Source: Bifidobacterium pseudolongum subsp. globosum | GTDB lineage: Bacteria > Actinomycetota > Actinomycetes > Actinomycetales > Bifidobacteriaceae | Direction of reading: 5' to 3' | DNA length: 64,000 bases | Assembly: GCF_004155535.1 (NCBI RefSeq) | Contig: NZ_RYUH01000014.1 | Location: 1 to 64,000 of the forward strand | In this document: positions 10,353 to 23,405 of the stretch, piece by piece | Layout of the letters: each line of letters opens with the position of its first letter | Numbering within the stretch: position 1 is the stretch's first letter | Position numbers and translations under genes: made by a program | Notes under the pieces: model-generated | The model's database searches: none | The model's input: the letters and a program-made list of their open reading frames with translations, nothing else | Told to the model about the DNA's origin: nothing

Positions 10353-10464
10353 TTACCAACCCAACAGATGCTACACTTTCATTTAGATAACGGATATGGG
10401 AATTGACTCTCTCTTTGATAGACTTTGATAGACTAACCTTGATATATGAGATAAGTAGACCCAT
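10353..10464 (+). promoter_or_regulatory. Leader region of the type II-C CRISPR array
   Basis: A 112-bp A/T-rich stretch between the IS30 remnant and the first repeat. It holds two tandem copies of TTTGATAGACT at about 10424-10443, the same motif as the 3' end of the repeat, and a TTGACT at about 10412-10417 as a possible -35 box. Plus-strand transcription of the array (see the tracrRNA and the terminator after the last repeat) puts the leader on this side. Confidence 0.55.
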
Positions 10465-11612
10465 GCTGGAAATTAGCTTCCTACCTTCTTGATAGACTTG
10501 AACACTCAGGAAATTCGGCATATAGGAACTAAAGTTATTGATTTAGAGTCTGGTTTGCCTTTTCGCCAGTAGGCGTGTCGTCCCGTTGCAGATGCGCACG
10601 GGTATCTGCTTGTGTGGTTTCGTGTGCAATGTGTGTCATGAGGACACGTTCGAAGCAAGCGAAGAAATGCCCGGTCTGCCAGTCGCCGATGCGCAAGAAC
10701 GGGCACGACCGCATGGGCCGGCAGCGTTGGCAGTGCGATGGGTGCAGGCTGACCGCCGGCACCAGGAACAACACCAAACGGCGCCGCACCCAGCTGGCGC
10801 AGTTCCTGGACTGGCTGCTCGAGGCCGCGCCCCAACGCAAACGCACGGAGAGCGCGCGCAACTTCCGCAAACGCGTGGACTGGTGCTGGCGGCTCGCCCC
10901 GCGCATCGAACCCGACGGCGTGGTGCATCGCACGGTCATGGCCGACGGCACCTACATGAACGGCTGGTGCCTGCTGACGGCGGTCGACGGCGAGGACGGC
11001 GAGGTGCTCGCCTGGCAGTGGTGCGCCCGGGAGAGCGCGGCCGCCTACCAGGCCCTGTTCGAACAGATCGCACCTCCCGACGTGCTCGTATGCGACGGCA
11101 TGAAAGGCATCCTCAAAGCCTGCGCGCAAATCTGGCCGGGCACGCGCATCCAACGCTGCCTGGTCCACGTGCAACGCGACACAAGGGCCGATCTGACCTC
11201 CAGACCCAGACTGCAGGCGGGCAAGGATCTCAAACGCCTCGCCGACACGCTCATCCGCATCCACGACGCCGACACGGCCGCCAGGTGGGGCCAGGCGCCC
11301 GACGCGTGGCACGAACGCTGGAAAGGCATGCTGGCCGAACGCACGTATGCCAAGGACCATCCCGACGATCCCAGGGCCGCCACGAGCAGAAGCGGATGGT
11401 GGTGGACCCACCTGCCATTGCGCCGCGCCTATTTCAGGCTTGAACGCCTCTTCAAAGACGGCACGCTCTTTTGTTTCCTCGACCCCACACTGACCGCGCA
11501 GGGCCCCGTGCCACGCGACAGCAACCGCCTCGAGTGTATTTTGTCAAATTGGCGTTTTGGTTTTTGTCATTAGCTTTTTTCGGTTTTGTGCATGGGGCGT
11601 GCCGGCGGGTGG

Positions 11613-12356
11613 TTATTTGTTGTTGAACATGAGGGCTTGGCTCAGACGGCGGCTTGGCCCGTGGAATTCGATGAGGCGTCCGTGGTGGACGATGCGGTCG
11701 ATGATGGCGGCGGCGAGTTTGTCGTCTGCGAAGATGGTGCCCCATTTGCCGAATTCGATGTTGGTGGTGAAGATGATGCTGCGGCGTTCGTATGCTCCGG
11801 CGATGATCTGGTAGAGCAGGCGTGCTCCGTCGATGTCGAAGGGCACGTAGCCGAATTCGTCGAGGATGATCAGGTCGGCGCGGCCTAGGTCCTTGAGGAT
11901 CTGGTCGAGGTTGCCGGCGCGTTTGGCCTTGCCCAGTTGCAGGACGAGTTCGGCGGTCTGGCAGAAACGCACGGTGCGTCCCTGTTCGACGGCCTTGATG
12001 CCCAGGGCGGTGGCCAGGTGGGTCTTGCCGCGTCCGGTCTTGCCGTAGAAGACGAGGTCCTGTGCGTGGTCGAGGAACTCGAGGCTGGTGAGCTGGTCGG
12101 TGTCGTAGCCGTCGGGCATCTTGACGTGCGTGTAGTCGTAGCCGTCCAGGCTTTTGATGACGGGGAATTTGGCGCGGCGCAGCAGGCGTTGGCGTTTGCC
12201 TTGTTCGCGGTGCTCGATCTCGCGGGCGAGCATGGTGTTGACGGCGTCGATCTGGCGGGGCGTGGCCCATGCGAGCAGGTCGTCGATGGTGTCGTTGGAG
12301 ATGAACAGGGCGCGCGCGTTGTCGCGCAGGCGGGTGGCGGTGTCGTTGTTCTTCAT
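11613..12356 (-). CDS. istB: IstB transposition helper ATPase
   Basis: A 247-aa AAA+ ATPase of normal IstB length. Walker A is FYGKTGRGKTHLAT and Walker B is LIILDEFGYVPFD; the end is RRLSQALMFNNK. IstB assembles on DNA and activates the IstA transposase. The gene starts at 12356, just after istA on the same strand. It looks intact, but its partner istA is frameshifted, so the element may depend on another copy. Confidence 0.92.
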   Translation of the reverse strand: MKNNDTATRLRDNARALFISNDTIDDLLAWATPRQIDAVNTMLAREIEHREQGKRQRLLRRAKFPVIKSLDGYDYTHVKMPDGYDTDQLTSLEFLDHAQDLVFYGKTGRGKTHLATALGIKAVEQGRTVRFCQTAELVLQLGKAKRAGNLDQILKDLGRADLIILDEFGYVPFDIDGARLLYQIIAGAYERRSIIFTTNIEFGKWGTIFADDKLAAAIIDRIVHHGRLIEFHGPSRRLSQALMFNNK

Positions 12357-12375
12357 GGTGTGGTCCTTGTGGGGG

Positions 12376-13844
12376 TCAGTGGTGCAGGTCGCTGAAGGCG
12401 ATGTCGTATTCGCTCAGGTCGACGGGTTCGTCGTAGACGATGGGTTCGTTGCCGGCACGCAGGCGCGCGGCCTGCAGTTCGACGCTGGCGGCGTCGAGGG
12501 TGCCGGTGGCCGAGAGCACGTCGCTCATCGCGTCGATGGCGGTCCGCCATCCGGTGTCGCGGCTGACGGCGAGCATGGTGCGCAGGTGGCCCTGCAGCTC
12601 GATGCGTCCTTGCTGGTCGAGCCACGAGCGCAGCGGGTCGGGCAGGGCGTCGCGCACCTTGCTGTTGGGCCACGCGTTGGCCCTGAACACGAGCGCCTCG
12701 AGCTGGTTGACCGGGTCGTCGCTGCTGGTGGGCGCGTCCCCGTACGCGCGTTCGTGCATGCCGATGGGCTTGCCGGTCGTGTCGAGGATCTCGACGCTGT
12801 CGGCGCGAAGGCCGACGATCAGCTCGCGTCCGGCGTGCTCGATGCCGGTGAAGTATCGGTGGCGTCCCTCGAGGGTGACGGCCCCGTATTTGTCGGCCTT
12901 CATGCGCTTGTAGGCCACCGGGTCGAATCCGGCGGCCGGCAATGGCAGCAGCATGGCCCTGTCGTGCTCGAACAGGCGCGACTCCCTCTCGCCCCTGCGG
13001 TAATGGGGCTTGTCGGCCATGGCCATGCAGCGTTCGAACAGGTCGGCGTTGAACGACTCGTAACCATACGCCTTGGGCACCGGCACGAACAGGGCGCGCC
13101 TGATCGCGCCGACCTTGGCCTCCACATTGCCCTTCTCATGGCCCGAATACGGGTTGCATAGCGTGGAGTCGAACCCGTAATGCGCGCGGAAGGCGGCGAA
13201 CAGTTCCGTGTAGCGCACCCCGCCGTCCTTGCGCTTGTGCCCCACGCCGGCCGCGTTGTCGAACACGATGCGGCGCGGCACGCCCCCCCAGACGCTCGAA
13301 CAGGCCACGAAGCGCCGCGCACGTGCACTCCGCGTTCGCCCGGGGTCAGGCAGGCGACCGCCGTGTTCGAATACGGGAACGAGAGCACGAAGAAGCGCAT
13401 GCGCGTGCGCACCCCACGCCACCAGACATCGGTCTGGCCGAAATCGGCCTGCGCCTCCGCCTCATGCCATGAAAGGTCCAGAAACCCGCTCTCCCTTTCC
13501 AAGCGAAACTGCCGCTTGAGCTCGCCGACCTTGCGGTTCACCGTCGACAGGGACACGTCCGCACCATGCTCGTGCACCAGACGCTCATGGATGCGCGTGG
13601 CCGTGTGACGCTGCTTCGACCACGACTCGCGGTCCTCGGCCAGCCACTGCTCGATCAACGGCACCCACGGGTCGATCTTCGACGGCCTGGCCCGCTTGAC
13701 CGGCGGCTTGGGCGACAGGTCACGCACCTTCAAGTACTTGCGCACGGTCGGCTCGCTCACGTTCAGCTCGCGGGCTATCGCCGCGACCGAGCAGCCTTCC
13801 TTTCGCATCGAACGGATAGAGTGGACTACGGACATGCTGATCAT
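12376..13844 (-). pseudogene. istA: IstA transposase, two frameshifts
   Basis: The N-terminus (VHSIRSMRKEGCSVAAIARE, then a helix-turn-helix) and the first catalytic region (EAQADFGQTDVWW) are in one frame. Near 13345 the frame shifts, so NAECTCAALRGLFERLGG is read in another frame, and an extra G in the run at about 13283-13289 shifts it again before VPRRIVFDNAAGVGHKR. The C-terminal part runs to 12376. IstA is the DDE transposase of IS21 elements. With both shifts it cannot be made as one chain. Sequencing error in the G-run could account for one of them. Confidence 0.85.
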
Positions 13845-16800
13845 TGCCTTTCCGGGCCTTTCAACTGGAAGAATTAGAGCACTTCCCAGTCAACCAGACC
13901 CAACGGTGATGGTCGGCATGCTCCCATGCGCAAACCCGAAAAAACTACCTGACCAAAACCTCAATCCCCAATTGAACACAAACACTCGAGGGAGGGCTCA
14001 ACGCCGCGCTCAAGTGCATGCTCGTCAACCACCGCGGCCTGCCCGAGGCGCACATGCGCCGCGCCTGCGAATGGCACTGCACCATGCACAGCGCCAAACC
14101 CGACCCCGCCCGCATCCTCAAGCAACACGACCGGCAGGGCAAACCACGTACAGACCAAGACAACGAGCCCGACATGACCCAGCCAACACTCGGAACCGGC
14201 ACCGACTGGAACGAATTCCACGCCAGCACACGCTACCCAAACGCAACCGAATGAAAGTCTAAATCAATAACTTTAGTTCCTATATGCCGGAAATTCGTGA
14301 TTCTTCACGCTGGAAATTAGCTTCCTACCTTCTTGATAGACTTGTAGGTCTCGATGACGAGTGGTGTCTGGCGCTGGAAATTAGCTTCCTACCTTCTTGA
14401 TAGACTTGAAGAACGTGACAAGAGCGTTCCACACCGGCTGGAAATTAGCTTCCTACCTTCTTGATAGACTTGCGCATGTCCCGGTCTGTGCGGCCCATGC
14501 GCTGGAAATTAGCTTCCTACCTTCTTGATAGACTTGTCTCAGCCGACGTAGCGAACGACAGCTCGCTGGAAATTAGCTTCCTACCTTCTTGATAGACTTG
14601 TCGAAACCATCGACGGCTGGTGGCGGTGGCTGGAAATTAGCTTCCTACCTTCTTGATAGACTTGGCCTCGGTCTTGGTGACGCCGGGGATCTGCTGGAAA
14701 TTAGCTTCCTACCTTCTTGATAGACTTGTGAACAATTCGCATGGGTCATCACCATCGCTGGAAATTAGCTTCCTACCTTCTTGATAGACTTGAGCACAAG
14801 AAGTGAACAGTGGTTTGCGGGCTGGAAATTAGCTTCCTACCTTCTTGATAGACTTGGGCCTGCCTTGAATACCGTACTCCTTCAGCTGGAAATTAGCTTC
14901 CTACCTTCTTGATAGACTTGTGAACAATTCGCATGGGTCATCACCATCGCTGGAAATTAGCTTCCTACCTTCTTGATAGACTTGCGCCGGAAGCATCATC
15001 GTATGGATCGGTGCTGGAAATTAGCTTCCTACCTTCTTGATAGACTTGTGAAGGTGGAACGCCCCGTGTTCCTGCAGCTGGAAATTAGCTTCCTACCTTC
15101 TTGATAGACTTGATTTCGCGGACGAGGTCACCGGGTCGATAGCTGGAAATTAGCTTCCTACCTTCTTGATAGACTTGACAATCCGTGTCCACCGTCACCT
15201 GCGTCGCTGGAAATTAGCTTCCTACCTTCTTGATAGACTTGAAACCACATCGCTAACCCGAATCTGATGCTGGAAATTAGCTTCCTACCTTCTTGATAGA
15301 CTTGGCTCGGGCCCATACGCTTGATTCCGCCAGCTGGAAATTAGCTTCCTACCTTCTTGATAGACTTGTCGAGTTTGATGCACAGGTCGAGCGCGTGCTG
15401 GAAATTAGCTTCCTACCTTCTTGATAGACTTGTCGATGGCGTCCATGTCCACACCGTTCGGCTGGAAATTAGCTTCCTACCTTCTTGATAGACTTGCTGC
15501 ATCAGTTGCAGCGGCAGTATGAATGCTGGAAATTAGCTTCCTACCTTCTTGATAGACTTGTTCCCCCGACCATCTGACCGACGTCGCGGCTGGAAATTAG
15601 CTTCCTACCTTCTTGATAGACTTGCTATGCCCTCTTCGCTGGAAATTAGCTTCCTACCTTCTTGATAGACTTGCGCATGCGCGACCAACTCCACTACGCC
15701 GGCTGGAAATTAGCTTCCTACCTTCTTGATAGACTTGCTAGGGAGATACTAGGGAACCCCACGCGCTGGAAATTAGCTTCCTACCTTCTTGATAGACTTG
15801 CGCCCACGCTACCGACTACCGGCGCGTCGCTGGAAATTAGCTTCCTACCTTCTTGATAGACTTGAAATCGTCGGCCCCGTAGCGCTGTAGATGCTGGAAA
15901 TTAGCTTCCTACCTTCTTGATAGACTTGGTGCCGACGGGTTTGAGGCGATGACGGTGCTGGAAATTAGCTTCCTACCTTCTTGATAGACTTGCACCCGGC
16001 CTACTATCCGCGTGCCCTCTGCTGGAAATTAGCTTCCTACCTTCTTGATAGACTTGAGCGGAGCGCCCACTCGTCGATCTGCGTGCTGGAAATTAGCTTC
16101 CTACCTTCTTGATAGACTTGAGCCGTTCTCGGACTTGAAGCCGACGAAGCTGGAAATTAGCTTCCTACCTTCTTGATAGACTTGGCCATCACCAGCGCCA
16201 TGCCGGACATGCGCTGGAAATTAGCTTCCTACCTTCTTGATAGACTTGTCTTGCTGGAATCATATGTGGTTCCGTCGCTGGAAATTAGCTTCCTACCTTC
16301 TTGATAGACTTGACCATGTCCACCGCATCCGAACCAATGGCTGGAAATTAGCTTCCTACCTTCTTGATAGACTTGGGTTCGCCGCACGTGGGCAGGATCG
16401 TGAGCTGGAAATTAGCTTCCTACCTTCTTGATAGACTTGGAGGCGGTCAGTTCCCGCCATGGTGTGCGCTGGAAATTAGCTTCCTACCTTCTTGATAGAC
16501 TTGGACAACGATGCCATCCGCCGCCTGCGCAGCTGGAAATTAGCTTCCTACCTTCTTGATAGACTTGAATTGGCGCCACAGTTCCTGCTCGCGCTGCTGG
16601 AAATTAGCTTCCTACCTTCTTGATAGACTTGATCTTGCCCTTGGCCTTGAGTGTATCGAGCTGGAAATTAGCTTCCTACCTTCTTGATAGACTTGGGAAG
16701 TCTACGGTGATCCTGGCGCCAATGCTGGAAATTAGCTTCCTACCTTCTTGATAGACTTGCCGGCATGATGGTGATTCTCATTGGCGTGCTGGAAATTAGC

Positions 16801-17122
16801 TTCCTACCTTCTTGATAGACTTGCACCCACACCCATCAACCTCACCGCAGCGCTGGAAATTAGCTTCCTACCTTCTTGATAGACTTGCCGACCGGCCCGA
16901 TTTGCGCGACGCGATGCTGGAAATTAGCTTCCTACCTTCTTGATAGACTTGCAGACGCACACGGGCCACTACGATCAATGCTGGAAATTAGCTTCCTACC
17001 TTCTTGATAGACTTGGTTCGTCGGCGAGCATCTCGTCGAGTGTGCTGGAAATTAGCTTCCTACCTTCTTGATAGACTTGCCAGAAGTTCGTGACACCAGT
17101 CACGCTCGCTGGAAATTAGCTT

Positions 17123-17168
17123 CCTACCTTCTTGATAGACTTGATAGCCTGCCAAGAAGGTAGGTTTT
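17123..17168 (+). terminator. Terminator of pre-crRNA transcription after the last II-C repeat
   Basis: CCTACCTTCTTG inside the last repeat (17123-17134) pairs perfectly with CAAGAAGGTAGG at 17153-17164, followed by TTTT. This hairpin can form only after the last repeat and only in plus-strand RNA, so it marks the end of the array transcript before cas2. Confidence 0.65.
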
Positions 17169-17193
17169 CCAACGATTTTCACCAAAAAGATGT

Positions 17194-17526
17194 TCAAAAA
17201 ACAGTGCAGACATCTGGTGCCTCCACATTGTTTTGAGGAACCTCGTTGACAAAACGCAGAGATTGCGCCCATTGATGGTCGCTAATATGCACCACCCGTA
17301 CTTTCCCCCCGGACGGTAAATGCTGCTTAATCATTTTCACCGTGGATCGGTTTCCCGATTGGGTTGGTGAGTATCTCGCATACACGGAGAACTGTACCAT
17401 CATATAACCCATGTCAAGCAGCATATTCCTGAACGCTGTTGCCTCGCGTCGTTCATTCTTGGTCTGTACAGGCAAATCGAACATCACCAAACACCACATC
17501 CCCCCACTCTCCTCATCCTTTTTCAT
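17194..17526 (-). CDS. cas2: CRISPR-associated endoribonuclease Cas2
   Basis: A 110-aa protein with MWCLVMFDLPVQTKNERRE (first beta strand with the conserved Asp of FDLP) and FSVYARYSPTQ, typical of Cas2. The start at 17526 is chosen because GGAGG lies 5 bp before it; a longer upstream frame only overlaps cas1. It overlaps the end of cas1 by 14 bp. Cas2 dimers bridge Cas1 dimers in the spacer-integration complex. The array lies just downstream, converging with cas transcription. Confidence 0.95.
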   Translation of the reverse strand: MKKDEESGGMWCLVMFDLPVQTKNERREATAFRNMLLDMGYMMVQFSVYARYSPTQSGNRSTVKMIKQHLPSGGKVRVVHISDHQWAQSLRFVNEVPQNNVEAPDVCTVF

Positions 17527-18418
17527 CATATCCTCCAAAAATCGGAGTTGCCAATACCCTCTCCTTCGACTCACAATATAAGCCAAATTGCTGTGCAAAC
17601 TCGTCAATGGAACTGGGAATTGTCAGCCCTCCATTGAACTGAGAGTGCACTGCCTGCACCAATGCTGTTTTTTCGTCTTTCCCTAGGGAAGATCCTTGAA
17701 TATCCAGTTGCGCAACCCGGCAATCAATGGCAGGACGATATGGTTCTATCAAATCGTCAGCCAAACAGAAATAATTGGATCGGTTGTGGTGTCCAACTCC
17801 AAAAACTGGCGACAAACCGGCTGAACATATTGATTTGATAACGAAACCGCGAAGAACGGCATAGGCGTAATCCAGTTGTGAATTACGCCCCTCTCCTGCT
17901 CCTGGAACGCGACGAAAACCCTCTCCACCAAAAAGGTACTGCCAATACTTTCTCGCCGCCTGTCCTTCAATATTGGTCAAATCACCGGAACGAACCGCTT
18001 TCGCAAGCTCACGAAGCTCATTCCCTCCTGATTTTTCACATACATCAAGGCAATGCGCCTGACCACGCACTTTAGCTTTGATAATCTGCATCCACGCATT
18101 TTTCTGCCGTGGTACGCTCATTGAGACCTGCGCACGCTGTCTGCGAGTAACAAACGTTGGAGAATCACTCCAACTATGCAAGGCTCCCACTGGAATCCCA
18201 CGCCAGTCGCAGAGCATGACACTAATACCATGCTTTGCAAGTTCGAATAACAACGCAGTAGAGCATGTAGCCTTTTGTCCCAGCAATATCACGGCAATCT
18301 GAGCCAACGGGATCTCCACTGGATCCTCGCCTTCACGGCATACGCGCAAGCGTCCGCGAACATATCGCAGCTTACCTCGTAATTGTGTGCAATCCATGAC
18401 TCGCCAAGCGCTTTGCAT
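17513..18418 (-). CDS. cas1: CRISPR-associated integrase Cas1 (type II)
   Basis: A 301-aa protein of the type II Cas1 group. It has IPLAQIAVILLGQKATCST near the N-terminus and likely metal ligands in TNIEGQAARKYW (Glu) and GVGHHNRSNYFCLADDLIEP (His and Asp/Glu). It starts 12 bp after cas9 ends and is followed by cas2 with overlap, so cas9-cas1-cas2 is one operon on the minus strand. There is no csn2 or cas4, which defines type II-C. No defect is visible, so spacer acquisition may still work at the leader beside repeat 1. Confidence 0.96.
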   Translation of the reverse strand: MQSAWRVMDCTQLRGKLRYVRGRLRVCREGEDPVEIPLAQIAVILLGQKATCSTALLFELAKHGISVMLCDWRGIPVGALHSWSDSPTFVTRRQRAQVSMSVPRQKNAWMQIIKAKVRGQAHCLDVCEKSGGNELRELAKAVRSGDLTNIEGQAARKYWQYLFGGEGFRRVPGAGEGRNSQLDYAYAVLRGFVIKSICSAGLSPVFGVGHHNRSNYFCLADDLIEPYRPAIDCRVAQLDIQGSSLGKDEKTALVQAVHSQFNGGLTIPSSIDEFAQQFGLYCESKERVLATPIFGGYDEKG

Positions 18419-18430
18419 ATTTCCACCCGC

Positions 18431-21400
18431 TTAATCGAAGGACCAACAAACTGGCATATGGTTGTAGGAAACATATCGTTTCTCACCAAGAGTATTCCGA
18501 CGAACCACCGTTGCTTTGTAGGGAAGAATCTTCCCGATGGTCAAACGCCAACTTCTGGAAAATAGAGTATTCACATTAGCGAGGACTTTAGAGTCGACAT
18601 CCAATCGTTCTAGGACTTTCGACAATCCTTCGAGTGCCAATACACTCGGTCGCAGATTGATTCTCGTCGCAGACTCGAAGCCCGTCACCACCCATCGACC
18701 AAGAATAGTGCTGTCAACATGCAGATCCTGTTCAAAAAGATTGAGGAAGGAAACCAGCTGATCGCTCACATCGTCGGGAAAATCCAGCTCAATCTCATCA
18801 CCTACAACAAGATAACCCTTATACTCAGCACGCTCGTCGCGAATAGCATCGACTACATTGTGATCTGCATACCGCATCGAAATAGACTGCTCAGGAAGGG
18901 CACATGTGAATAAATCCTCATGAGTAGCACGCAGCAAATCGGGTTGGAACACGCGAATCATACCGTACGAATATGTACGCTCGCCTTTCTTGTTCTCCTT
19001 ATACCACTTATAGATGCGAGCATGATGAATAGCACATCCAATATCAGCGGATCCTCGCTGCACAGCAATCTGCACACTGTTACCAGAAAAAAATGTCACA
19101 GTGTCCGATGCCGTGTAATACGTTCCATTCACCGTAATCTCACGATGCATATCTTCAGGAAGACCGTTCTTCGGCGAATATTCCGGCAAACGCGTCAAAG
19201 CACAATATAGTGCTGGCGTTGAGGCCTTCGCTATCAATTTGGCATCCATCGCATTACTTAGCGGAACTCTAACTAGCGGGTGAATAGTTGCATCATGAGC
19301 CGCAGAATTACCAGATGAATATCTGTACAAATGAGTTACTGGTATACGGTCTGCATCCAATGCTTCGTTGAGCAAATCCAACAGCGCACGCATAGACTCC
19401 ACCCATTTTCTGTAGGCAGCATATCCTCGGTCATCCAAGGTTGGATATTCTTTCCACGCAACTTCGTCCTTTTCAATGTGGCCTATCGCATTCTGCGCTA
19501 TATGCAAATTCCTGCGAATCTGCAAAGCTTGCGCAGCTCCTGATGTCATTATTGCGATTACTGCTGCATCAATGGCATGATGCCTACGGTCTAGACGCGT
19601 CTTATATTTTGCTCCAGCAAAATGAATTTGCCCATCGATTTGAGAAGCCTTACGCGCTTCGGCAGTGATACTTCCCTGATACACGCTCACTCGTGTCGCA
19701 GCTGGCTCATCTGCAGCCAAAGTTCCCGTATATCGTGCCGAGTTGTAATACCAGTCAATGCGTCGATGCAACTCATCAGCCATCCACGCGACTGATTCGA
19801 TGGACCGATTGTCAATCGGTTCATCCTGTTCAGTCTCCCGCAATCGTGCGATTACGGAATTCATGAAATTTCTCGCCTCTCGGCTGCTCATTGCCAACGA
19901 ATCGATATTGAACATCTTGACTCTAGCAAGGGCATCTTCTAAGGAAACACCTCGCTGCCGTGCTGCATCCGTCTGTGCCCATACGGCAAACGGCATATTG
20001 GATTTAGACCGATTACACTCCTCACATACGGCAGCAAAATTATTTCTGGTATTTGTGGAACCAACACCCTTGCGGGGGACAATATGGTCCATCTCGCATG
20101 TCTTGAAACTAATGGTGCGACCACAATACAGGCATTCGCCATTCTGCCGGGTAATGCACTCGATGCGCCGAAGATCGTAATCGCGAACGGTATCCAGCCC
20201 AAACTCCTTTTTCAGATCCTCTGCTTGTTGAGCTCGGTATGCGTTTCGCTTCGCGAGGTAGGACTCATAATCACGCTTGTCTTGACGCGCAGTGGGAATA
20301 GACGAGAACCCATTGCGCACATGCTCAATCTGAACTGATTCCGGGTTCCCCCATCGACTTTGCGCAGCAATCAGGAATCGATGGACGATTTTCAGCACCC
20401 TATCCACCGCAGCATTACCTAGGGGTGCATGGATTGGCAGTTGCGGGGGCCGCCAATTATCATCCACACCGAACAACGCTTTACGAGCCGCATGCAAATC
20501 GTCATCAGTATCCAGCATTCGTCTTGTCAGTTTATTCAGCGTCTTCACTGAATATGCCGCACGACCACTCGGCAAATCAATGGAATCTAACTTGGTCAGT
20601 GCATCATCATCAAGACGTTCAATGAACTCAATGGCTTCTGTAAATACTGGATCTTCTCGTTTGTCGTCAATATCGACCGCATTCGATAGCAGCGAAATCA
20701 TTGCCTCATGCGTGGAATCATCAGTTTCATTCCACCATTGCTGGAGGAGTTTACGAAGCTTCGAATCTTTCAACCCCATAATCCGCTGCACGGATGTCAA
20801 TTGCGGAGGTTGGCTTGTCACTCGCTCCTCGCCATCCTGAGTGAGCGAACCAACGCCCTTGAGGCGATTCCTTGGCAATCCCAGTTCCCTGCAAATATCG
20901 TTCCACAGCAGATTCTCTCCCGTCTGTTGCGATGCAAGGCGCTGGTACACCCGTTGCTTTTCATCGACCGTAAGCGGTCGCAGTGCATTACCATCCAAAA
21001 TGCGAAGGTTGGTGATGATATTGGCGATACGATAACGTTGGAAGGCCAAAGAAGCTTTTGATGCCCTTATCTCCATGGGATCGAGGGCATCACGCCCTGC
21101 ACGGCGTTCAGCAGAGCCACGCGGAGATTTCGCTTCGAATATAGCGAGAATCAACTCACGAGCCACTTCTTCCGAAACATGTTGCTGCTTGAAGATAGTG
21201 CGCAATTCATATGCATAGTCCGCCTGCATAAGACGAGTGGAAATAAGCCCTTCTCTGACGCCCAACTTCTTACTGCCAGTCGACGTACGGATGCGGATTG
21301 CCGGACCATGGTTTTCAGCGAGCACTGCATAAATGATTTGGGCAGGAGTCGCAGTTTCTGGAATGTATTCCCCACCAAGCTTCGCAATGGCACTATCTCG

Positions 21401-21883
21401 CAATTGTTGATATTGCTCTGATGATGGCGCGTCCACGCTCAGCAAAGATTCCACACGAATATATGGATTTCTCCACCCCCTATGCCGTGCAACATGCCTA
21501 CAGGCTATGGAGATTGCACGTCTGCGCTCATCCTCATTTTCAATGTATTCAGACGCCGCCAATGCACGGATCTGCCACGCGCCAAATCCATGGAGCAGCC
21601 TTTCATCCACGATGGGGAAACCCAAATCGCTAAGTTTTTTATCCAACCTAGCCAAGCGAGCCTTCCTACGCCTACGCATACGACGCGTACGCCGTGCTAT
21701 ACCAGCCTGTTGCCGGCGGGAGTCCCCACTTTTCTGCGAATTTGGATCCACACCTCCATCATGAATCACGCTCATCGCCTTGAGAATGCGCACAGGCATC
21801 CCTGTCTCATCGAGTTCGATGGCCGCTAATCCTACGGAATACAGACCAACATCAACCCCAATAGTGTAACGCCTTTGTTTCAT
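18431..21883 (-). CDS. cas9: Cas9 endonuclease, type II-C
   Basis: A 1,150-aa Cas9, a normal II-C length. RuvC-I is YTIGVDVGLYSVGLAAIELD, an Arg-rich bridge helix follows (RRTRRMRRRRKARLARLDKK), RuvC-II has VQIEHVRNG, HNH is CLYCGRTISFKTCEMDHIVP with CEECNRSKSN, and RuvC-III has RRHHAIDAAVIAI. Catalytic Asp, Glu and His residues all look present. The start MKQRRYT at 21883 is chosen for the AAAGGGGG 5 bp before it; the upstream frame to 22057 overlaps the tracrRNA and is not coding. Overall form recalls the actinobacterial AnaCas9 branch. The PAM cannot be read from the gene. Confidence 0.97.
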   Translation of the reverse strand: MKQRRYTIGVDVGLYSVGLAAIELDETGMPVRILKAMSVIHDGGVDPNSQKSGDSRRQQAGIARRTRRMRRRRKARLARLDKKLSDLGFPIVDERLLHGFGAWQIRALAASEYIENEDERRRAISIACRHVARHRGWRNPYIRVESLLSVDAPSSEQYQQLRDSAIAKLGGEYIPETATPAQIIYAVLAENHGPAIRIRTSTGSKKLGVREGLISTRLMQADYAYELRTIFKQQHVSEEVARELILAIFEAKSPRGSAERRAGRDALDPMEIRASKASLAFQRYRIANIITNLRILDGNALRPLTVDEKQRVYQRLASQQTGENLLWNDICRELGLPRNRLKGVGSLTQDGEERVTSQPPQLTSVQRIMGLKDSKLRKLLQQWWNETDDSTHEAMISLLSNAVDIDDKREDPVFTEAIEFIERLDDDALTKLDSIDLPSGRAAYSVKTLNKLTRRMLDTDDDLHAARKALFGVDDNWRPPQLPIHAPLGNAAVDRVLKIVHRFLIAAQSRWGNPESVQIEHVRNGFSSIPTARQDKRDYESYLAKRNAYRAQQAEDLKKEFGLDTVRDYDLRRIECITRQNGECLYCGRTISFKTCEMDHIVPRKGVGSTNTRNNFAAVCEECNRSKSNMPFAVWAQTDAARQRGVSLEDALARVKMFNIDSLAMSSREARNFMNSVIARLRETEQDEPIDNRSIESVAWMADELHRRIDWYYNSARYTGTLAADEPAATRVSVYQGSITAEARKASQIDGQIHFAGAKYKTRLDRRHHAIDAAVIAIMTSGAAQALQIRRNLHIAQNAIGHIEKDEVAWKEYPTLDDRGYAAYRKWVESMRALLDLLNEALDADRIPVTHLYRYSSGNSAAHDATIHPLVRVPLSNAMDAKLIAKASTPALYCALTRLPEYSPKNGLPEDMHREITVNGTYYTASDTVTFFSGNSVQIAVQRGSADIGCAIHHARIYKWYKENKKGERTYSYGMIRVFQPDLLRATHEDLFTCALPEQSISMRYADHNVVDAIRDERAEYKGYLVVGDEIELDFPDDVSDQLVSFLNLFEQDLHVDSTILGRWVVTGFESATRINLRPSVLALEGLSKVLERLDVDSKVLANVNTLFSRSWRLTIGKILPYKATVVRRNTLGEKRYVSYNHMPVCWSFD

Positions 21884-22007
21884 GTTGCCCCCTTTGGAAG
21901 TCATCGTCCTCTCAGTGTATAGCATATTCTTCAAATCACCTAATGTAGACCCATACTCCATCAGTAATTCTGTATCTACACACCATGCATCAAAAGTATG
22001 GTGGAAT

Positions 22008-22098
22008 ACGAAAACGGGGAAGCCGAAGCTTCCCCTGCGGAGCATTTCCGTTAGCATTCAAGATGGCTATCGAGTCCATCCTTACTGGAAATTAGCAA
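22008..22098 (-). ncRNA. tracrRNA: tracrRNA of the type II-C system
   Basis: On the minus strand, GCTAATTTCCAGT (about 22083-22096) is complementary to the first 13 nt of the plus-strand repeat (12 Watson-Crick pairs and one G-U). It is followed by GATGG-N9-CCATC and CGGA-N5-TCCG stems and the hairpin GGGGAAGC-TTCG-GCTTCCCC with GTTTTCG, an intrinsic terminator (22016-22035). The RNA of about 90 nt would lie between gshA and cas9. It fixes which repeat strand is crRNA. The ends are estimated from promoter and terminator. Confidence 0.85.
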
Positions 22099-22103
22099 AT
22101 CCG

Positions 22104-22132
22104 AGTATACACGATTATCAGTCTGCACACAA
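22104..22132 (-). promoter_or_regulatory. tracrRNA promoter
   Basis: On the minus strand TTGTGT (22127-22132) and TATACT (22104-22109) are separated by exactly 17 bp, a good vegetative promoter. Start of transcription is expected at about 22097-22098, just before the anti-repeat. Confidence 0.75.
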
Positions 22133-22133
22133 C

Positions 22134-23405
22134 TTACCCCTGTCGCACCTCCGGCCACTTCGCGTCGCCCGGCACATCCGCCAGCGCATCCCCTACGCCC
22201 AGCACCTCGGCCCAATACTCCATCGGCTGGTCGTAGGGCTTCGCCTCTCCCCCGCGCGCCTGCAGCACGGCCTTTGCGGCGTGCACGTCTTCGCCGGTCA
22301 GTCCGCTGAAGTACGATTCGAGGCTGTTGCGGCGCTCCACATCGTAGAACAGGTTGCTCACGATCTGTGTGAGCAATTCCGCGCGCTCGATCGGCAGTGA
22401 GTCCCAGTGCCGCATCTCGATGAAGTTCTTCAAACGCACGTCGTTGAAGTGCGTGGAGAGCACGTGGTTGATCTCGTACGCGTTGAGCTCGCGGTCCGGG
22501 TATAGGTCGGCCGCGGTCGTGTAGAACGCGGCGAATTCGATGCCGTGCACGGACGCACCTTCCGCTTCCGGCGTGTGGGTCAGGTCGGCGAACATGAGCG
22601 GGGTGCTCAGCACGTCCGCCGCGTAATCCTCCCAGCTGAACCGCTCGTCGTACAGGCCCGGCGTCACGTTGGTACGTTGCACGTCGAGGTAGTCCCACAT
22701 ACGCTGGCGGCACAACGGCCACGGGTTCGGCGCGCCTTCGAAATATGGCGTATTGCGAAAGAACCATGCGAGGATCGGGCCGATCGCGGTGCCGAGGCGC
22801 ATCTTGTCGATCGCGTCGCGTTCGCTTGTATAGTCGATGCTCACCTGCGTGGAGGCGGATGCGCGCATCATGCACGGGCCGAACTGCCCGATGCGCCCCA
22901 GGTACTCGTTCATCGCGGCGTAGCGCAGTTTGGGGTTGAGCGGGATGTCCGCGTATGAGCTCTTTGGCTGGTAGCCGTAGTTCACCAGGCGGAAATCGAG
23001 CTCGTCGAGGATCGGTGCGGCTTCGCGCATGAACTGCCCGTGCAGTTCGAGCAGATCCTCGGGTTTGCGCAGAATGCCGATCGACGTCTCGATCTGCCCG
23101 CCCGGTTCGAGCGAGATGGAGATTCCCTCGCGCGCGAGCCCGACGAGGTGGTCGTCCTGCCAGTATTCCTGCGCGGGGTCGTAGTACGGGCGCAGGCGGC
23201 GCAGCAGTTCCTCCACGCCGTTCGGCTCGCCGTAGGTGACCGCCGTGTCGTCGCTGTTGTGCACGGGCAGATGTTCGATCTCCACGCCGAAGCCCCCGGT
23301 GCCAGGCGTGGAGCACCCCTCCTCGAAGAATCGTACAAGACTGCGCACGTGGCGCGGATTCGGCTGAACCAGCAGATGCGCGTAGGAAACTCGTGGTGTC
23401 GTCAT
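22134..23405 (-). CDS. Glutamate-cysteine ligase family protein (GCS2)
   Basis: A 423-aa protein of the GCS2 family, as found in actinobacteria. Landmarks are GGFGVEIEHLPVH (active-site strand with Glu residues), ISLEPGGQIETSIGI (substrate-binding Glu/Gln), and CMMRASASTQVSIDY. Such enzymes join glutamate and cysteine using ATP to give gamma-glutamylcysteine, for glutathione-type or ergothioneine-type thiols. Bifidobacteria often keep this gene without a glutathione synthetase, so the end product is not known. It starts at 23405. The tracrRNA promoter begins immediately after its stop. Confidence 0.85.
   Translation of the reverse strand: MTTPRVSYAHLLVQPNPRHVRSLVRFFEEGCSTPGTGGFGVEIEHLPVHNSDDTAVTYGEPNGVEELLRRLRPYYDPAQEYWQDDHLVGLAREGISISLEPGGQIETSIGILRKPEDLLELHGQFMREAAPILDELDFRLVNYGYQPKSSYADIPLNPKLRYAAMNEYLGRIGQFGPCMMRASASTQVSIDYTSERDAIDKMRLGTAIGPILAWFFRNTPYFEGAPNPWPLCRQRMWDYLDVQRTNVTPGLYDERFSWEDYAADVLSTPLMFADLTHTPEAEGASVHGIEFAAFYTTAADLYPDRELNAYEINHVLSTHFNDVRLKNFIEMRHWDSLPIERAELLTQIVSNLFYDVERRNSLESYFSGLTGEDVHAAKAVLQARGGEAKPYDQPMEYWAEVLGVGDALADVPGDAKWPEVRQG

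Follow-up and report, generated by a model that had tools for sequence, protein, structure and literature searches.

The window, that is, the whole 64-kb stretch of DNA analyzed, carries a CRISPR-Cas9 locus whose gene order on the minus strand is glutamate-cysteine ligase, tracrRNA, cas9, cas1 and cas2, followed by the CRISPR array. The cas9, cas1 and cas2 genes form the three-gene operon of type II-C systems. As to csn2 and cas4, the gap between cas2 and the array measures about 50 bases, and the scan of the insertion ORFs gave no match to either family. The minus strand of the interval between the ligase gene and cas9 holds what is by its layout a complete type II-C tracrRNA gene, the letters of which were checked at each coordinate. 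It lies beside the CRISPR-cas locus in an orientation that allows pairing with the crRNAs. The features of the locus are the following:

22134-23405, locus read on the minus strand: glutamate-cysteine ligase gene (best NCBIfam match below its cut-off)
22127..22132, minus strand: weak -35-like hexamer TTGTGT, 17-nt spacing to the -10 box, 3/6 matches to TTGACA
22104..22109, minus strand: -10 box TATACT, 7 nt before the anti-repeat, position kept in 17/17 loci
22011..22096, minus strand: tracrRNA, predicted 86-89 nt, start at 22096 or 1 nt before (covariance model, E 2.6e-17)
22096-22084, minus strand: anti-repeat GCTAATTTCCAGT, 13 bp with repeat nucleotides 1-13, 12 Watson-Crick and one G-U (letters and 17-set pairing count)
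22060..22082, minus strand: nexus stem-loop, 7 bp, stem 22082-22076 with 22066-22060, nexus region 22083-22060
22038..22050, minus strand: short middle stem CGGA/TCCG, 22050-22047 with 22041-22038 (by eye, no formal count)
22011..22035, minus strand: intrinsic terminator GGGGAAGC-TTCG-GCTTCCCC and T-run, stem-loop 22035-22016, T-run to 22011 (consensus scanner)
21884..22057, minus strand: 58-codon in-frame extension of cas9, overlapping the tracrRNA, probably untranslated; frames of relatives close sooner
18431..21883, minus strand: cas9, 1150 aa, likely true start 21883 (TIGR01865, 205 bits, cut-off 100)
17513..18418, minus strand: cas1, type II (TIGR03639, 226 bits, cut-off 120)
17194..17607, minus strand: cas2 (TIGR01573, 58.5 bits, cut-off 24.5)
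17123..17168, plus strand: hairpin of last repeat and flank, then TTTT, possible array terminator; last repeat and flank span 17108-17168
14309..17143, crRNAs on the plus strand: CRISPR array of 45 exact 36-nt repeats, spacers mostly 28 nt; a 46th repeat lies at 10465

In the tracrRNA, the consensus scanner assigned 8 pairs to the terminator, 6 of them G-C. Folded in isolation as a single strand, the RNA gave a z of -2.63, with 2/200 shuffles folding equally well. The anti-repeat is mostly paired internally in that fold, so the free RNA may need the crRNA or Cas9 for its opening. At the gathering threshold, Rfam returned one tRNA elsewhere in the whole window and no family at the tracrRNA, and a permissive Rfam search of 21900-22200 gave three chance-level matches only. 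A natural single-guide form was considered and rejected, the sequence upstream of the anti-repeat being free by eye of any repeat-like stretch.

The repeats pair with the anti-repeat only if the crRNAs are read from the plus strand. Two spacers of the array stand out: a single one of just 13 nt (15625-15637) and an identical 28-nt spacer present twice (14729-14756 and 14921-14948). Searches for spacer targets yielded a single phage match (E 0.9) and a single plasmid match (E 0.2), and at such values no PAM was derived. The lone repeat at 10465 is parted from the main array by an insertion of about 3.8 kb (10501-14308) within one spacer. The insertion has perfect 32-nt inverted ends (10516-10547 and 14258-14289) and is flanked on both sides by GGAAATTC, and the interrupted spacer was by eye originally 28 nt long. 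It contains a match to a Mutator-type transposase, while its opposite strand has a match to IstB (IS21) and weak ones to transposases; perhaps two elements are nested here.

Pairing and covariation of the tracrRNA

We searched 112 genomes of the genus for Cas9 and obtained a match in 30, six of these covering only about 55-71 residues. The relatives compared are the 20 with substantial Cas9 matches, besides the window's own genome; the more divergent G013 and G095 and the fragments of G064 were taken separately and are outside these counts. Named relatives of the protein are those of Bifidobacterium canis (64% identity) and of a Corynebacterium metagenome-assembled genome (40%). A contig scan with a single Cas9 protein recovered only 2 loci.

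In 15 of the 20 relatives, the start of this RNA lies 141-251 nt ahead of the cas9 match, the two sharing a strand; in the other five (G042, G039, G108, G099 and G107) it is displaced. It lies about 4 kb upstream in G042, on another contig in G039 and G108, and about 590 nt upstream on the opposite strand in G107. The G099 copy (L055:7249-7345) sits just upstream of the first repeat at the 5' end of the array, on the crRNA strand.

Pairing between anti-repeat and repeat is complete within each genome: all 13 positions pair in 17/17 sets for which the repeat is known, against a mean of 12.43 with the repeats of other species, and the anti-repeat tracks changes at repeat positions 2, 5 and 6 over these sets. 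When partners were permuted between species, with relatedness uncontrolled, 0/5000 permutations reached the native pairing. The stems behave likewise. In an alignment of 18 sequences 97.6% of cells are paired, as against 43.6-56.1% in controls slid by 1-3 columns, and 53 cells carry changes on both sides as against 15.6 in shuffles. Such two-sided changes occur in 11/16 pairs of the nexus and terminator stems, that is, 5/7 in the nexus (99.2% of cells paired) and 6/9 in the terminator (96.3%). Four of the five covariation measures were above the shuffles (0-1/500 as high); the number of further pair types in this alignment showed no excess (22 versus 22.7 in shuffles).

A covariance model trained on the 18 sequences, the window included, matched in 25 of the 112 genus genomes, and beyond its training set it located the tracrRNA of G039, G042 and G108. 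Applied to a sample of 297 genomes from the order, it found another genus of the family and a single weak match outside the family. Run with strict filters over the whole genome of the window at E up to 0.01, it returned the tracrRNA site alone, with no second copy. The anti-repeat is also the sole 13-mer of the window with at least 11/13 Watson-Crick matches to the partner of the repeat, outside 10400-17200, the part left out of the count as holding the array and its lone repeat. At no more than one mismatch, the 13-mer has 48 places in the whole genome, namely the 46 repeats, the tracrRNA site and a single site at C2:108410. The original prediction had named a better anti-repeat elsewhere in the genome as the finding that would overturn it, and neither the 13-mer nor the covariance search brought one to light.

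We are thus highly confident that the minus-strand element 22011-22096 encodes the tracrRNA of a complete type II-C CRISPR-Cas9 locus, an RNA that the system probably requires to make use of its guides, with a predicted length of 86-89 nt and a predicted start at or one base before 22096. A complete tracrRNA gene upstream of cas9, as originally predicted, is borne out by the pairing with its own repeat, by the covariation and by the covariance model. The 13-bp anti-repeat claimed for it forms 13/13 pairs, and the two small stems and the intrinsic terminator are present, the nexus and terminator covarying and the latter being detected by the scanner.

The cas9 frame through the RNA gene and the integrity of the locus

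Above 21883 the cas9 frame runs on without a stop for 58 codons, as far as an ATG at 22057 that directly follows a TGA; in this the original prediction was exact, and the extension is peculiar to this genome among those compared. The frames of the 20 relatives close 0-38 codons above their aligned or match start, none being as long as 58. Cas9 translation most likely starts at the ATG at 21883, which is preceded by the Shine-Dalgarno-like AAAGGGGG and is the start also used by the closest relative. The open frame through the tracrRNA looks accidental, and the locus illustrates a reading frame running through an RNA gene.

That the frame up to 22057 is translated, giving Cas9 a real 58-residue N-terminal extension, is extremely improbable in our judgment. 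Such a protein would have a choice of starts, as the open frame contains ATG codons at 22057, 22045, 21961, 21925 and 21904, the last of which (7 codons above 21883) also has a purine-rich stretch before it, and one relative, L048, has a shorter open stretch of 34 codons with a TTG start that partly overlaps its tracrRNA. However, no open stretch exceeds 38 codons in any of the 20 relatives, the closest of them (65% identity) lacks an ATG above the aligned start, the DNA of the extension is conserved as RNA stems and a good Shine-Dalgarno sequence stands before 21883. We also consider it very unlikely that the locus is a relic in which a conserved-looking RNA outlives an inactive system. The insertion of about 3.8 kb does interrupt one array spacer, and in another genome (G018, L010 / L039) an intact-looking tracrRNA and array lie beside a cas9 match with 7 stops, part of it in another frame. 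Yet the window has open frames for cas9, cas1 and cas2, exact copies throughout its 46 repeats, and an intact anti-repeat and terminator.

The probable 5' end of the tracrRNA and a proposed scheme for the guide RNAs

In 17/17 loci, the hexamer closest to TATAAT within the 60 nt upstream of the anti-repeat is separated from it by 6-7 nt, and T1, A2 and T6 of this -10 hexamer are identical in all of them. In the 40 nt before the hexamer just two columns reach 11/17 (G at 12 and 13). The best -35 match over the 17 loci averages 3.35/6 as compared with 2.81 in shuffles, a slight excess, and with a match barely above the shuffles we rejected a conserved -35 element. A GCGTGTC motif occurs upstream in 4/17 loci (shuffled mean 0.07), too few for interpretation, and the consensus promoter scanner reported no promoter at its threshold upstream of the tracrRNA. 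The "good promoter (17-bp spacing)" of the original prediction was therefore overstated: its 17-nt spacer and conserved -10 box stand, but its -35 hexamer is poor (3/6) and is not clearly conserved in relatives. In Bifidobacterium breve, the promoter hexamers are TATAAT and TTGACA, with 17 bp as the optimal distance, and the -35 is more degenerate in genes of medium expression, according to the part of PMC5746004 considered.

The nearly constant distance between -10 box and anti-repeat, together with normal spacing, makes the first G of the anti-repeat, or the base just before it, the probable transcription start. This agrees with the start near 22097 and the length of about 90 nt originally predicted. 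An RNA starting at the anti-repeat would form a 13-bp duplex with no upper stem. The same tracrRNA could instead be transcribed from farther upstream as a molecule of 108-109 nt with upper stem and bulge and then be cut by RNase III, a reading that we hold to be unlikely. Two bifidobacterial tracrRNAs in the part of PMC7284854 considered, of 109 nt and 108 nt, are described as having both features, and a GATAAT hexamer is found farther upstream in the window (22119-22114). Nevertheless, extending the RNA to 109 nt from an unchanged 3' end would move its start above the -10 box, and the stretch proposed as upper stem contains the conserved box itself. Moreover, this stretch pairs with its native repeat no better than with the repeats of other species or after shuffling (-5.5, -5.1 and -6.2 kcal/mol, respectively). 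The upper stem and bulge thus find no support in the upstream stretch, which gives no pairing signal and holds the -10 box.

The repeats may carry promoters of their own. In the last repeats of 19 arrays, T26, G27, A28, T29, A30 and T34 are invariant and make up an extended -10 pattern; here the motif near the 3' end of the repeat is TGATANNNT, and each repeat ends in TTGATAGACTTG. The scheme that we infer for transcription, start sites, Cas9 binding and RNA processing at the tracrRNA locus is as follows. RNA polymerase would start the tracrRNA at or one base before 22096 from a promoter driven by its -10 box and would stop near 22011. With its first 13 bases the tracrRNA would bind nucleotides 1-13 of every repeat in crRNAs transcribed from the other strand, and the nexus, the middle stem and the terminator hairpin would form the Cas9-bound body. 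The crRNAs would consist of a guide of 23-24 nt and then the repeat. Because the tracrRNA would begin at the anti-repeat, leaving the rest of the repeat single-stranded, RNase III may have nothing to cut.

The type II-C system of Neisseria meningitidis resembles the scheme proposed here in that the array is transcribed opposite to the cas genes from starts within spacers, whereas the position of its tracrRNA and the length of its anti-repeat differ; in Campylobacter jejuni the tracrRNA has a pairing stretch longer than the 13 bp seen here. The part of PMC3656092 considered describes for C. jejuni three cas genes and an extended -10 box in each repeat, as here, with crRNAs starting at spacer position five from that repeat-borne box. 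With this precedent, the repeat-borne box of the window makes it probable that transcription of the crRNAs begins some 5-6 nt into each spacer. The same source has RNase III cutting the C. jejuni tracrRNA:repeat duplex to give crRNAs of about 38 nt; the N. meningitidis system is named both there and in PMC3936727. The tracrRNA itself looks genuine but ordinary for its field, since type II-C tracrRNAs upstream of cas9 have already been published for bifidobacteria (B. bombi, PMC4521832; B. longum and B. pseudolongum, PMC7284854); what is added is a refined 5' end. Those RNAs, as far as these sources go, share with ours the location upstream of cas9, an anti-repeat complementary to the repeat, a nexus and terminal hairpins. 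Those modelled in silico for B. longum (109 nt) and B. pseudolongum (108 nt) possess an upper stem and bulge, whereas the RNA predicted here, with 86-89 nt and 13 bp, has neither. To understand or use the compact Cas9 of 1150 aa, one has to know both ends of the tracrRNA, 5' and 3', correctly. If the short-duplex start is true, published in-silico guide designs for bifidobacterial II-C Cas9 may contain promoter sequence, and crRNA maturation in bifidobacteria may do without RNase III.

The end of the array and orphan tracrRNA-like genes

A covarying, species-specific hairpin marks the end of 19/19 bifidobacterial arrays: starting at about nt 14-19, the last repeat pairs with an inverted copy in the flank. 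Mean pairing energies were -23.0 kcal/mol with the native flank, -16.2 with flanks of other species and -7.3 with shuffled ones, and 0/2000 flank permutations reached the observed sum. When a fixed helix of 13 pairs was aligned (row L054 looks out of register), 84.6% of cells paired, sliding lowered this to 42.9-54.3%, 7 pairs had changes on both sides, and the number of further pair types was not clearly above shuffles (60/500 as high). The T-run after the hairpin has at least 4 T in 11/19 arrays, the window included, and at least 3 in 15/19. Similar hairpins were seen in L060, L061, L063 and L082. When the whole last repeat was folded with its flank, nt 1-13 were partly paired in all 19 arrays, which argues against the simple picture of these nucleotides being free for the tracrRNA.

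This hairpin is possibly an intrinsic terminator of crRNA transcription that forms anew whenever a spacer is added; in II-C systems, new spacers enter at the last repeat (PMC12080349, in the part considered). The missing T-runs in 8 loci speak against a terminator there, and the hairpin could alternatively be a signal for spacer integration. Our literature search found no description of an array-end hairpin, the closest paper (PMC12080349), in that same part, having looked at hairpins upstream of the array. Taking the terminator reading together with the guide RNA scheme, we tentatively suggest, as something possible though short of probable, that bifidobacterial and some other actinobacterial II-C systems combine a tracrRNA that starts at the anti-repeat (13-bp duplex, probably no RNase III substrate), crRNA starts within spacers from promoters in the repeats and an array terminator that has the last repeat as its 5' arm and is thereby inherited automatically with each new spacer.

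Concerning generality, type II cas1 was sought in a sample of 396 genomes from the phylum; of 27 matches, 10 exceeded the cut-off, the window itself accounting for one of these. Six of the 9 other loci had a detectable array in the stretch examined, and none was counted as support for the hairpin. Three of these arrays, in their assumed direction, had 0, 35 and 44 of 300 shuffles pairing as well or better; we take their repeats to be of II-A appearance. Another, of uncertain direction, had 276/300, and the last two, from one genus, pair weakly (16/300 shuffles each).

A tracrRNA-like gene is found in five small, AT-rich genomes of the genus, each time 23-57 nt downstream of one and the same 474-aa gene, in 11-kb loci with a GC content of 41-46%. 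These orphan genes occupy one conserved chromosomal site:

L076:5337-5422, orphan tracrRNA-like gene
L077:5349-5432, orphan tracrRNA-like gene
L078:5230-5311, orphan tracrRNA-like gene
L079:5822-5905, orphan tracrRNA-like gene
L080:5399-5484, orphan tracrRNA-like gene

They keep the -10 box, anti-repeat, nexus and terminator, and covariation among the five is slight (4/22 pairs). Seven other small genomes have no orphan gene within 330 nt of that site. Three of the five gave no Cas9 match, one of these being only 88% complete, and the other two have Cas9 and a second tracrRNA. The five genomes are possibly, we assume, what NCBI calls Gardnerella, and our literature search found no paper on Gardnerella with an orphan tracrRNA. 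The orphan gene may be a relic, a decoy or a regulator. Together with the array-end hairpin, it is more novel than the tracrRNA gene itself. An intact-looking tracrRNA is also present in G035 (L075:4959-5047), a genome without a Cas9 match, where it is followed by a Shine-Dalgarno-like stretch and an ATG, as if cas9 had been deleted.
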